Source: Phenylobacterium sp. (GTDB lineage Bacteria; Pseudomonadota; Alphaproteobacteria; Caulobacterales; Caulobacteraceae). From it: DNA of 64,000 nt. The stretch covers positions 1 to 64,000 of the forward strand of contig NZ_JAUYNW010000080.1 in NCBI RefSeq assembly GCF_030698145.1. Reading direction: 5' to 3'. Below the pieces are notes generated by a model that did no database searches, was not told the origin of the DNA, and saw only the letters and a program-made list of their open reading frames with translations. Position numbers and translations under genes: made by a program. Shown in pieces: positions 5,992 through 12,021 of the stretch. Within the stretch, counting starts at the first letter, position 1; every line of letters begins with the position of its first letter.

Positions 5992-8480
<2,489 letters not shown>

Positions 8481-8490
8481 GGCCCCGGGA

Positions 8491-9006
8491 TTGGCGACCT
8501 ACCTCGTCATCTTCGGCGCAGCGGTTCGCCCGGACGGGCAGCCAAGCGGCAGCCTTCAGAGGCGGATTGAGGGCGCGCTCAAGGCCTCCAGCGATCTCGA
8601 CAACTGCTGCTTCATGCCCACTGGCGGGCTGGGCAAGGCAGGATTCGTCGAGGCCGAGGTGATCGGGAGAATCCTGCGCGCCGCGGGGGTTCCCGCCAGC
8701 CGGATCGTGGTCGAGGGCCAGGCGAGCGACACCCTGGCTTCCGTTCGCCTTTGCCACGCCCTGCTTGAGGCCCGCGGCGACGCAGATGAGATCCTGGTCT
8801 GCACCAGCGGCTACCACCAGCCGCGCTGCGCCCTGCTGTTTGCGATACTCGGCTATCGAACCCGCCGACCGCCGATGGCGCGGGACCTGCCGTCCCTGGG
8901 CCCGGCGAAGTGGCTGACCTATGTCGCAAAGGAGTTCATTTCGACTCCTTATGATTGTATATTGCTCTTGCACACGGTGGCATTTAGGCGGCTCTATAGG
9001 ACCTGA
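8491..9006 (+). CDS. YdcF/SanA-like DUF218 family protein
   Basis: The protein begins YLVIFGAAVRPDGQPSGSL, then has TGGLGKAGFVEAEVI, a GVPASRIVVEGQASDT block and a CTSGYHQPRCALL block. These are the order and spacing of DUF218 (YdcF/SanA) proteins, a Rossmann-like family linked to envelope processes and possibly S-adenosylmethionine binding. The exact biochemical role is unknown. It has no N-terminal membrane segment, unlike SanA. The start is TTG, ten bases after the ligA stop, suggesting co-transcription with ligA. The last 25 codons are less GC-rich than the rest. Confidence 0.8.
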   Translation: MATYLVIFGAAVRPDGQPSGSLQRRIEGALKASSDLDNCCFMPTGGLGKAGFVEAEVIGRILRAAGVPASRIVVEGQASDTLASVRLCHALLEARGDADEILVCTSGYHQPRCALLFAILGYRTRRPPMARDLPSLGPAKWLTYVAKEFISTPYDCILLLHTVAFRRLYRT

Positions 9007-9034
9007 CCCGCCCTCGGCGGCACAGGATGGGGCG

Positions 9035-9415
9035 ATGACCAAATACCTGTTGATCGGCGTGGCGGCCTTGGTCGTCGTGGTGTTGGGAATCCTGATTATC
9101 CCGCAACTGATCCCGAAGCCGCCGGCCCCCGACGATCCCTATGGCAGGCAACTGGTGCTCCTGGCCGAGACTGCGGAGCGGACCTGCCTAGTGGGCACTG
9201 ACACGCGGACGGCGGCCAGCGTCACGTCTCAGATCGAACTGATCAAGGGCGTCAAGGCCGCGGCGACCGCAGAGCGCCGCGAGGTCGCGCTGCGCGGCGC
9301 CATCGATTTCCCGGAAAAGCTGAAGGCTCCGGAAATGGCGGCGGCCCGCGCCTGTATGGAGCCCTTCGCAGAACAGATGCGGAAGATCGCCGACCTGGCG
9401 ATGCGAGCCGGATAG
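9035..9415 (+). CDS. Small membrane-anchored protein with a two-cysteine AERxCL domain
   Basis: I do not recognise a named family. The ATG at 9035 starts MTKYLLIGVAALVVVVLGIL, a single N-terminal transmembrane segment, so the remaining ~100 residues are probably periplasmic. That part holds AERTCLVG, a basic helix with ATAERREVAL, then FPEKLKAPEM and AARACMEPF. The same order (AERxCL, a Glu/Lys/Arg stretch, a PxxL element and RxCM) occurs in the N-terminal domain of the next gene, which begins 21 bases downstream. The pair is therefore likely one operon of related proteins. An upstream in-frame ATG at 8921 lies inside the previous gene and is rejected. Confidence 0.7.
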   Translation: MTKYLLIGVAALVVVVLGILIIPQLIPKPPAPDDPYGRQLVLLAETAERTCLVGTDTRTAASVTSQIELIKGVKAAATAERREVALRGAIDFPEKLKAPEMAAARACMEPFAEQMRKIADLAMRAG

Positions 9416-9436
9416 AACGCGAGGCAGGGAACGATC

Positions 9437-11167
9437 ATGCCGGCTCCGCGACGAGGTCTAAGGATCATCCGTGGTCTGGCCGCCGCCGGCGCGTTGGCCG
9501 TGGCGGGGCCGGCAGCCCGGGCGCAAGTTTCCGCACAGGATCTGAAGACCCTTGACGCGGTCGGGGCGGAACTGAACCGCGTTACGGCGGCGGCCGAGCG
9601 GGTCTGCCTGGCGAGTTACACCAAGACGCAGCAGAAAAGCTTCCTGGCGAACCTGTCGCAGGGCTGGGTCAAGTTGGTGGCTTTCGGCTCGCTCGGGGCC
9701 AGCGCCGAACAGAAGGAGCAGATCGTCCGCTCCTCGGCGCGGGACCTGCCGAAGTCCCTATGGTCGATCCAGGACGACAAGGTCCGCAAGTGCATGCAGG
9801 AACGGGTGGACCCGGCCTTCGTGAACTATGCGCGCGCCATCGAACGCATCACCGGGGTGAGCGGCCTTGCCGAGATCAGCTTCCGGTTCGCATTTCAGCG
9901 CTCGGGGCCGCTTGACCGGAACCGCTTCACCGATCGCCTGGTGCTGCACGCGACGACCCCTTCGCGTCAGGTGAAGAACTGGATCTCGGTGCAGGATCCC
10001 ACGGGGATTCCCTATTTCGTGCAGGACTTCGCCTATCCGGCGGCCGGGAAGCCGATCAAGGGCTGGATCGCGCCGGAGGCGGCGAGTTCGGCCCTGGGCG
10101 GCGCGAACCCGGCGCTCACCTCGTTCTGTGTCGAGCGGGCGCCCGCGCCGCCGCCCACCGGGATCGACTACGATCATTTCCAGTGCGTCGAGGGCAAGGA
10201 CTGCCGCCCCTCGACCCAGTCCACCAAGATGCTGCGCCTTTGCCCGGCCCCAGCCATCGTCCAGGCGAACCCGCCGGCCCGGGTCTGGCGGGCCAGCCAT
10301 AGGCTCCAGCCAGGCGGGGCAGAGGGCGCCGCAGCGCAGAAACCGACATGGAACGTTCCCTCGCTGGAAGCCCTGATCGAACGAAAGGGAGCCGGAACTG
10401 GCTATACGATTTTCCGCCTGGAGACCGATGCGTTCAAGAACCAGCCCGCCGTCACCTCGGTCGAGGTGGGGCTGCGGGTCAACGGGATCACCGTGAACGA
10501 GGACGGGGTTCCGCCGGAATACCGGCCGGTCGGGAACCGGGCCGGAGAGGCGTTCAACTACAGCTTCGCCCTGCAGACCCTCAATTTCGACGGGGCGCGG
10601 CGAGGGTGCGAGGACGTCGAGGTCAGCCTCACGCCCCTGCTGGAGGACGGCGGCAAGGGACGCACCAGCGTCGCGCGGCTCGACTATGTGGCCTTCCGCG
10701 ATGTGGCGCCTCGGCCAGCGGCGGGAGGCGTCTCGGGCCTGACCTGGAGCGCGTCCTACATCCGCCCCGCGGAGGCGTGGCGGAATATGCTGATCCTCAA
10801 TTCCTATACCTTCACCTTCGAAAAGGCCGGCGCGCGCGAGGCGGCTATCGCCAAGGTGCAGGCGGACAAGGTCTGGCTGGACGCCAAGAGATTTGTGTTC
10901 AACGGTCAGCAGGTGGTGGGCGCGATCCGGCCGCCGCGGACCCTGCAGCCCAACGGATCGGCCGCCTATGGGCTAATGGCGGCGCTTCGCCAACCTTCGG
11001 GACAGCTGCGCCTGGTGTTCAACTATGAGACTGGCAAGGCGCTGGGCGACTATCTGACGGCCCAGCGTGGACATGACGCGCGCGCGGCAAATGTGATCGA
11101 CAAGTCGCCCTTCGTCCTGGCCGCGGGCGCGAACATCTTGAGCCTGCCGGGAGTCTGCGACAGCTGA
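9437..11167 (+). CDS. Exported protein of unknown function with N-terminal AERxCL domain
   Basis: The 576-residue product has a twin-arginine-containing leader (RRGLRIIRGLAAAGALAV) ending in PAARAQ, so it is predicted to be exported. Residues ~30-130 carry AERVCLASYT, SAEQKEQIV, LPKSLW and VRKCMQERV, matching the preceding small anchored protein in order and in its two cysteines. The middle has a cysteine-containing segment around ERAPAPPP and CVEGKDCRPS. The C-terminal half is beta-rich and Pro/Gly-containing, ending LSLPGVCDS. No catalytic motif is recognisable. It is the last gene of the run that starts at ligA and converges with the methyltransferase eight bases away. Confidence 0.75.
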   Translation: MPAPRRGLRIIRGLAAAGALAVAGPAARAQVSAQDLKTLDAVGAELNRVTAAAERVCLASYTKTQQKSFLANLSQGWVKLVAFGSLGASAEQKEQIVRSSARDLPKSLWSIQDDKVRKCMQERVDPAFVNYARAIERITGVSGLAEISFRFAFQRSGPLDRNRFTDRLVLHATTPSRQVKNWISVQDPTGIPYFVQDFAYPAAGKPIKGWIAPEAASSALGGANPALTSFCVERAPAPPPTGIDYDHFQCVEGKDCRPSTQSTKMLRLCPAPAIVQANPPARVWRASHRLQPGGAEGAAAQKPTWNVPSLEALIERKGAGTGYTIFRLETDAFKNQPAVTSVEVGLRVNGITVNEDGVPPEYRPVGNRAGEAFNYSFALQTLNFDGARRGCEDVEVSLTPLLEDGGKGRTSVARLDYVAFRDVAPRPAAGGVSGLTWSASYIRPAEAWRNMLILNSYTFTFEKAGAREAAIAKVQADKVWLDAKRFVFNGQQVVGAIRPPRTLQPNGSAAYGLMAALRQPSGQLRLVFNYETGKALGDYLTAQRGHDARAANVIDKSPFVLAAGANILSLPGVCDS

Positions 11168-11175
11168 GGTGCGCT

Positions 11176-12021
11176 TCACGCCGAGCGGGCCGTGACGATC
11201 CAGCTGGCGGACGGCAGCTTGACGCCATCCTCGCCTGCGTGGGGCCGTAGGGCCTCGCGCACGGCGCCGATCACCTTGTCCCGCTGCTCCGGGTGCTCGC
11301 GGAGCATGGCGCCCAGCGGGCCGACCTTCAGCGCCACGCCGAGCGTCTGTTCCAGGTCGCCGCTGCCGATCTTGCGGTCGTGCGGGGTGGTCTCGATGGC
11401 GTCGAACCCGGCTTGGGCGAGGATGTCGCGCGCCCGCGCCGGATCGGCGAAGGCGAAGGGGCCCGGGGCGAGCGGATCGTTGGGCGGCGGCGGCGGCAGC
11501 AGGGACAGGGCGGCGGCCATCGGCAGGGTCATGAACGGGTTCTCGTCGGGCCTGCGCCAGCAGACGAAGCCCAGACGACCGCCCGGCTTGAGGGCGCGGC
11601 GGATATTGCTGAAGGCCGCCACGGGATCGGCGAAGAACATCACGCCGAAGCGCGAGAACGCGCCGTCGAAGGCGCCCGGCTCGAAGGGATAGGTCTGGGC
11701 GTCGGCCTCGAGGAAGTCCGGTCCGTTCGGGCCGGCGCGGCGGCGGGCAACCTCCAGCAGGGGCCGTGAGATGTCGACGCCGAGCACCGACCCGCCCGGC
11801 GCAACGGCCTCCGCCAGCGCCAGGCTGGTCTGGCCGGACCCACAGCCGATATCCAGGATCCGCTCGCCGGGCCTGGGCGCCAAGGCGGCCGTGGCCTCCT
11901 GGCCCAGGGGCTCGAGCTGGGCGTCCATGCGGTCCTGCAGGCTCGCCCAGGTGTCGCCCGCCCCGGCGTTCCAGTATTCGATCTGGGCGGCGTTGGCGGC
12001 CGTTTCGTCTGTCGTGGTCAT
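11176..12021 (-). CDS. Class I SAM-dependent methyltransferase
   Basis: The SAM-binding motif I is LDIGCGSGQTSLALAEA, followed by the acidic motif LGVDISRPLL, then EADAQTYPF and FFADPVAAFSNIRRALKPGG, the sequence expected of UbiE-like Methyltransf_11/25 enzymes. The substrate cannot be told. A Pro-rich insert (LLPPPPPNDP) lies near residue 185. It is the distal gene of a minus-strand run: MFS transporter, aminopeptidase P, methyltransferase, with 26 bases between it and pepP. Confidence 0.85.
   Translation of the reverse strand: MTTTDETAANAAQIEYWNAGAGDTWASLQDRMDAQLEPLGQEATAALAPRPGERILDIGCGSGQTSLALAEAVAPGGSVLGVDISRPLLEVARRRAGPNGPDFLEADAQTYPFEPGAFDGAFSRFGVMFFADPVAAFSNIRRALKPGGRLGFVCWRRPDENPFMTLPMAAALSLLPPPPPNDPLAPGPFAFADPARARDILAQAGFDAIETTPHDRKIGSGDLEQTLGVALKVGPLGAMLREHPEQRDKVIGAVREALRPHAGEDGVKLPSASWIVTARSA

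Follow-up and report, generated by a model that had tools for sequence, protein, structure and literature searches.

Introduction

Members of the DUF218 family are described as abundant and widely distributed, and little is known of their activity (PMC3879167). In Escherichia coli, peptidoglycan and enterobacterial common antigen are both affected by the DUF218 proteins SanA and ElyC; SanA requires a Thr-His-Glu triad, and both proteins are speculated by the authors to be enzymes acting on precursors (PMC12176290); SanA has also been tied to lipid II availability (PMC13251401). Here we describe a run of three genes in a 64,000-nucleotide stretch of DNA from Phenylobacterium sp. (start of contig NZ_JAUYNW010000080.1; hereafter the window), in which a DUF218 gene, here called ydcF, precedes the genes of a small membrane-anchored and a large exported protein ("small" and "large") that share a two-cysteine domain. 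The window lies on contig C54 of a 4.01 Mb genome in 147 contigs (G000; 90.8% complete, 5.1% contaminated). The literature consulted on the E. coli DUF218 proteins (SanA, ElyC, YgjQ, YdcF) does not link any of them to a paralogous exported pair. The listed titles and abstract beginnings of open-licence PMC papers on DUF218/YdcF and on ElyC/SanA and peptidoglycan contain no such three-gene module, and no paper there combines Phenylobacterium with DUF218. Two apparent mentions of DUF218 in PMC3482391 are in fact of DUF2185. The module is real, and it is unannotated in the libraries we searched.

Results

Two adjacent proteins share a two-cysteine domain

A first-pass annotation, made from the sequence alone, had proposed that two neighbouring reading frames encode an anchored and an exported protein with a shared two-cysteine domain, neither of a known family and together possibly an undescribed periplasmic system. 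Both frames lie where they had been placed, on the plus strand and 21 bp apart (Table 1), and both products carry the motifs in question (small/large: AERTCL/AERVCL, AERRE/AEQKE, PEKL/PKSL, RACM/RKCM). The two cysteines are 56 residues apart in the small protein (C51-C107) and 62 in the large (C57-C119), within the 55-65 or so that had been noted. Compared on their own by BLASTP, the two window proteins align at 29% identity over 82 residues (E 6e-5); with the single large protein as query, the small gene was reached only at E 1.05. Profiles built from three orthologue sets, those of G000 and of two further carrier genomes, G531 and G499 (n=3 for both alignments and for the cysteine counts), are far more telling: hhalign matches the small profile to the large with a probability of 97.2% (E 3.4e-11), aligning C51/C107 with C57/C119. 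The large-protein profile scores the three mature small proteins at 17.8-28.3 bits, against at most 8.2 bits for 4,000 shuffled sequences, and the small-protein profile scores the three large N-terminal domains at 32.4-45.2 bits, against at most 13.2 bits for 4,000 shuffles (in each direction, 2,000 with the cysteines held in position). In G499 the large-protein profile recovered the small neighbour unaided (E 1.3e-5). At the level of sequence, these profile-profile comparisons and shuffle controls show a common origin of the two domains, making the small protein a paralogue of the N-terminal ~110 residues of the large one.

The small proteins have exactly two cysteines and the large proteins exactly eight, in identical alignment columns in all three genomes, none gained or lost, although the large proteins of G531 and G499 are only ~62-63% and 40% identical to that of the window. 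When a protein begins with what looks like a signal peptide, an even and fully retained set of cysteines is the usual mark of disulfides. The disulfides suggested by the first-pass annotation therefore appear probable, the pattern of conservation being of the disulfide type in all three orthologue sets. The proposed layout of an anchored small and an exported large protein also agrees with our reading of the sequences (membrane anchor, signal peptide and transmembrane calls were all made by eye), and a lysine ahead of the membrane helix suggests an N-in orientation for the small protein.

AlphaFold2 predicts both domains as four main helices that follow one another in a common order; helix 1 ends with the first cysteine, and the second lies near the start of helix 4. 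In the small protein the helices span residues 35-51, 57-75, 79-90 and 99-125, and residues 94-97 make a short turn (mean pLDDT 68.6); in the large protein they span 33-57, 63-85, 90-109 and 114-139 (whole model, mean pLDDT 55.1). The input alignment of the small protein included large-protein rows, but no small-protein rows entered that of the large protein. On the large side, therefore, the input cannot have produced the agreement. Unrelated folds, which would have spoken against a shared domain, are not what these models of modest confidence predict. Beyond this domain the large model is beta-rich; over the whole protein, pLDDT is at least 70 at 144 of the 576 residues. The C-terminal region of the large protein is more conserved than its N-terminal 275 residues.

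As anticipated, neither protein could be assigned to a known family: both fall below every Pfam and NCBIfam cut-off. The best Pfam match of the small protein is DUF6511 (15.2 of 28 bits) and that of the large is Ig_GP210 (E 0.03, in one orthologue only); NCBIfam gave E 0.018 or worse and PDB sequences E >= 0.5 for both, and PADLOC returned no family for any of the three window proteins at E values up to 10. Two candidate relationships were considered and rejected. Foldseek aligns the large model with four copper storage protein (Csp) chains (probability 0.99-1.0, E 0.04-0.1), a likeness to the four-helix bundles of Csp and Ccsp that, from the length of these chains, probably concerns the N-terminal domain; however, the match reaches a TM score of ~0.5 of the target, the small model gives E >= 2.5, and Csp proteins have many cysteines where each domain here has two. 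Residues 240-302 of the window's large protein match PHROG 28441 (E 0.0015), and gp56 of Mycobacterium phage Muddy matches the same part in a phage search made with the window protein only (tblastn E 0.09). In a two-sequence BLASTP the window protein and gp56 align across 98 residues at 28% identity (42.4 bits; E 9e-9, valid for that one comparison). Both gp56 and PHROG 28441 are 285 positions long, and gp56 may belong to this PHROG. The other two orthologues gave no match, and the three-row profile scored -0.8 bits over a 28-residue fragment; kinship is thus rejected, and at most a small element may be common to the two proteins.

A DUF218 gene is the third partner

The annotation had treated small and large as a two-protein system. 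They are a paralogous pair, as shown above, but the pair is not the complete unit, because a third gene immediately upstream had been missed. Its product is a clear DUF218 member (PF02698, E 3.4e-18, 66.3 bits against a cut-off of 27.6), in which T81, H109 and E148 align with T125, H149 and E182 of SanA. Such a Thr-His-Glu triad is present in all 30 aligned sequences of the genus, where 53 of 101 genomes have a ydcF-type match. The orthologues in G531 and G499 are 66% and 60% identical to the window's protein, whereas none of the remaining 50 matches in the genus exceeds 42%, and in a tree of 30 loci the copies from the module group together with 100/100 support to the exclusion of 27 other genus copies (branch length 1.39 in the midpoint-rooted drawing). 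We saw, by eye, no signal peptide or membrane segment in the window protein, which seems to be cytoplasmic, like E. coli YdcF. It falls well short of the NCBIfam equivalogue cut-offs for ElyC (17.9 of 205 bits) and SanA (12 of 363 bits), and by eye shows no N-terminal membrane segment. Beside the ordinary ydcF genes at 27 loci of the 50 other genomes there is no convincing relative (best E 0.027, with the two-cysteine profile, at L045).

The module is rare and occupies two places

How widespread is this arrangement? We searched for the large gene in 101 genomes of the genus, in 398 of the order with the single protein, and by profile in 390 genomes of the family, 308 of the class and 120 of the phylum, scoring per genome at most three candidates in the order and the family, four in the class and 11 in the phylum, so that very distant relatives could be overlooked. 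The gene is present in 3/101 genus genomes (G000, G531 and G499); the family search added one marginal fragment to these three, and the class and phylum searches returned only the window's own genome. Co-occurrence across Caulobacterales, which the first-pass annotation had recommended checking, is consequently not that of a general system: the module is rare, with three carriers among 390 family genomes. The small protein alone retrieved only its own genome among 149 family genomes, as did the two-cysteine domain among 220 order genomes (it was also searched in the 101 genus genomes). We discarded matches in G353 (order search, E 6.6e-4, five internal stops), G421 (family search, E 9.4e-4, covering profile positions 14-73 only) and G476 (genus search with the two-cysteine domain, E 0.008, a partial domain). 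Of two GTDB-wide pattern scans, one was without a match and the other found only two contigs, from metagenome-assembled genomes (MAGs) of Phenylobacterium, which we take to be G531 and G499. Two scans of viral contigs revealed no relative of the large protein, and plasmids gave no match for the window or G499 large protein or for the window's ydcF.

All three carriers have ydcF, small and large in identical order, at one of two places, and in both the gene immediately ahead is one for DNA repair. The place in G000 and G531 is between ligA and a methyltransferase gene; in G499 the trio is found between mutS and a HAD gene, starting 2 bp past the mutS stop (mutS, HAD, glnD and recN were named by eye, and the G499 neighbours read in the same way). 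The mutS place exists without the trio, as mutS-HAD-glnD, in G000, G488, G509 and G531; G476 and G515 show mutS-HAD up to the end of the available locus, G552 has mutS and glnD with no HAD match, and G534 and G335 show mutS only. None of these nine stretches matched ydcF, small, large or a second, other-type methyltransferase gene (by eye) that in G499 follows large by 23 bp on the same strand (L019, from 10061 down, minus strand) and may be extra cargo of the module. As a separate observation, the mutS of G000 (G000:C91:4775-7492, L097) reads with one internal TGA, either an assembly error or a real lesion.

A LigA tree was made from 31 of the 93 matching genomes, namely the 30 best loci and the long-branched G499. 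In it the carriers are not a clade and three changes are forced, in conflict with the module's ydcF clade. Given a single ydcF clade, the same gene order and carriers that form no clade by LigA, the trio is one inherited unit that moved, or was kept by very few.

The ligA place exists in three states

In the flanks of the trio, the DNA of G000 and G531 is for the most part ~0.9 identical, save for a block inside ligA. Identity falls to 0.52-0.77 at the ligA stop (~8475) and within the large gene, from ~10,560 on, climbs back to 0.8-0.9, so that ydcF, small and the front of large average ~64% (mean of 150-base blocks). Synonymous divergence (dS, by the NG86 method) follows the same outline: 1.06 in ydcF, 0.99 in small and 0.90-1.47 in pieces of the front of large, against 0.37-0.43 in its rear, 0.37 in recN, 0.42 in ligA, 0.41 in pepP and 0.22 in the methyltransferase. 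Fourfold sites are identical at 25/63 in ydcF, 27/47 in small and 50/112 in the front of large, and at 74/104 in its rear, 267/360 in recN, 293/417 in ligA, 253/352 in pepP and 135/161 in the methyltransferase. There is a recombination breakpoint inside the large gene, placed at 10,529 by third positions (0 of 2,000 permutations as extreme) and at 10,604 by fourfold sites (4 of 2,000). On the simplest reading, the rear of large has been inherited vertically in both genomes and the front, with ydcF and small, was replaced by a divergent allele in one lineage. The opposite direction could also apply, the rear and the methyltransferase having been homogenised with an old front left on either side; the methyltransferase dS is lower than that of the other flanking genes.

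A third state is seen in G509 (two contigs, 100% complete), where ligA is followed directly by the methyltransferase, without the trio: an empty allele, next to fronts A and B. In a tree of part of recN, ligA 18-550 and pepP, G509 is the sister of carrier G531 (96.9% identity, support 100/99); in a tree of LigA residues 1-590, which includes part of the divergent ligA block, it groups with G000 (97/86). Either way it is nested between carriers. Its methyltransferase tract is 0.70-0.85 identical to both G531 and G000, and its pepP 0.87-0.97 to G531. The simplest reading is that G509 probably imported the empty allele, along with its own methyltransferase, by homologous recombination.

Two further features of this region deserve mention. 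The methyltransferase of G509 (L082) is 79% identical to the window's, that of G531 92.5%. Inside ligA, ~300 bp (window 7788-8087) are 54-58% identical between G000 and G531, in a gene that is mostly ~90% identical; since G509 agrees there with G000 (0.88-0.89) and not with G531 (0.61), it is G531 that seems to carry a replaced block in this housekeeping gene.

Selection, composition and layout

The ratio of nonsynonymous to synonymous divergence (omega; NG86, G000 versus G531) is 0.28 for ydcF, 0.29 for small and 0.38 for large, compared with 0.06-0.16 in recN, ligA, the methyltransferase and pepP, suggesting genes that are functional but loosely held and supporting the coding status of the small and large frames. 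Between G000 and G499 small has diverged fastest (31% identity, against 40% for large and 60% for ydcF). Third-position GC content is 80-84% in the window trio against 89-92% in five neighbours, and 82-88% in the trio of G531 against 93% in its methyltransferase; in G499 the values, taken for small and large alone, are 96-97%. The trio looks foreign in two hosts, then, and not in the third.

The small gene starts 28 bp past ydcF, and a convergent methyltransferase gene lies downstream of large. A scan with the sigma-70 consensus only found no plus-strand promoter-like site at 8300-11400; the trio may thus be transcribed from ligA. We found no tRNA in the window, and no mobility gene among the seven neighbours scanned with Pfam, whose families are housekeeping, metabolic or transport.

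Table 1. Features of the ydcF-small-large locus in window coordinates.
Feature	Position	Strand	Basis
DUF218 (YdcF-like) gene ydcF, 171 aa	8491..9006	+	TTG start, 10 bp past ligA stop; Pfam PF02698
Small membrane-anchored two-cysteine protein, 126 aa	9035..9415	+	ORF (open reading frame); orthologues in same place in G531, G499
Predicted N-terminal membrane helix of small protein, residues 2-25	9038..9109	+	Model helix 2-25; hydrophobicity by eye
Two-cysteine helical domain of small protein, residues 34-119 (C51, C107)	9134..9391	+	Model, cysteine conservation, paralogy
Large exported protein, 576 aa, 8 invariant Cys (57, 119, 231, 250, 256, 269, 391, 574)	9437..11167	+	ORF, alignment
Putative signal peptide of large protein, residues 1-30, AxA-type end	9437..9526	+	By eye; both orthologues begin alike
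N-terminal two-cysteine helical domain of large protein, residues 31-140	9527..9856	+	Paralogous to small protein; model
Beta-rich region 1 of large protein, residues 141-275 (C231, C250, C256, C269)	9857..10261	+	Low-confidence model
Beta-rich region 2 of large protein, residues 276-432 (C391)	10262..10732	+	Low-confidence model
C-terminal alpha/beta region of large protein, residues 433-576 (C574)	10733..11164	+	Model; conservation
Divergent block: ydcF, small and front of large	8475..10555	+	G000 vs G531 DNA identity; right edge 10,529-10,604

Discussion

Four points are well supported: the paralogy of the two domains, the conservation of the cysteines, the three states of the ligA place and the rarity of the module among the genomes that we searched. 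What the module does we infer from its sequence. Our tentative preference, held at somewhat less than even confidence, is that ydcF, small and large form one accessory envelope module, a tether and a secreted partner served by a DUF218 enzyme. Imagine the small protein in the inner membrane, its helical domain pinned by a disulfide in the periplasm, and the large protein secreted and folding with up to four disulfides. The N-terminal domain of the latter would dock on its small paralogue in a like-on-like pairing, by which the small protein might tether, hold or sense the large one, while the beta-rich rear would act on the envelope or on an outside target. The DUF218 enzyme, probably cytoplasmic, would serve the same task, perhaps via a precursor or ligand, by analogy with what has been speculated for SanA and ElyC. 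The divergent front, comprising enzyme, anchor and docking domain, would then be expected to be the co-adapted part, and the module might be under accessory, perhaps conflict-type, selection. A bolder version, to which we give only a small chance, is an exchangeable envelope module of a new type, in which recognition between the membrane-tethered domain and its counterpart on the disulfide-rich secreted protein would be allele-specific. The gene of the dedicated DUF218 enzyme, ydcF, would then be exchanged along with the anchor and the docking domain as one specificity cassette, in front of a constant rear.

Several observations weigh against the envelope module as we have drawn it. Linkage by itself could account for the front genes having diverged together, and the fourfold identity of small is intermediate between the rest of the front and the flanks. 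We found no more than three orthologue sets, and two or more of these come from MAGs. Mean model confidence is modest (68.6 for small, 55.1 for large), and at E <= 0.001 Foldseek finds no match in the PDB for either protein or among viral models for the large one. Finally, in one E. coli study, SanA and ElyC are predicted to be periplasmic and YdcF cytoplasmic, and single mutants of SanA, YgjQ or YdcF had no growth phenotype (PMC3879167). With YdcF predicted to be cytoplasmic and the single mutants silent, an envelope role for a cytoplasmic DUF218 protein rests on kinship.

Other scenarios might explain the pattern. Patchy presence and divergent and empty alleles at one place are reminiscent of effector-immunity pairs and accessory defence loci, and if large were an exported, bacteriocin-like effector, its anchored paralogue might protect the producer by sequestering it or mimicking its docking domain. 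A secreted cysteine-rich protein with a membrane-bound partner, diverging fast and block-wise under weaker purifying selection than the four flanking genes, is what such an interbacterial competition pair might look like. However, neither protein has a toxin-type domain or any match above a curated cut-off, PADLOC included, the rear of large, which should vary if it were the toxic part, is instead the more conserved one, and it is hard to see what part the DUF218 gene would play in such a pair; we consider this account unlikely. The same population pattern would suit envelope-based phage defence or exclusion, with the module altering or guarding the surface against phage entry. Here, the three window proteins, which the PADLOC scan covered, resemble no known defence profile even at the permissive threshold used, the seven neighbours form no defence-gene neighbourhood by Pfam, and viral contigs hold no relative of large in either scan, all of which makes defence improbable. 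Both accounts fit the population pattern, but we found no domain that would speak for either.

Alternatively, there may be no partnership to explain. Small might be a by-product copy of the N-terminal domain of large, left by an old duplication, the two proteins having separate, unconnected roles in envelope upkeep. Tandem position is precisely what duplication leaves, and small is the fastest-diverging of the three. We nevertheless doubt that duplication is the whole story, because small has been kept beside large in all three carriers, at two places and under purifying selection.

If the envelope-module reading is correct, its dedicated, co-inherited pair of exported proteins would help to reveal what a DUF218 enzyme serves. 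Although no mobility gene was seen next to the trio, the locus offers a close view of such a gene set differing from species to species, with three states at one place and a second place elsewhere. And if the pairing does prove allele-specific, it would represent a new recognition system.
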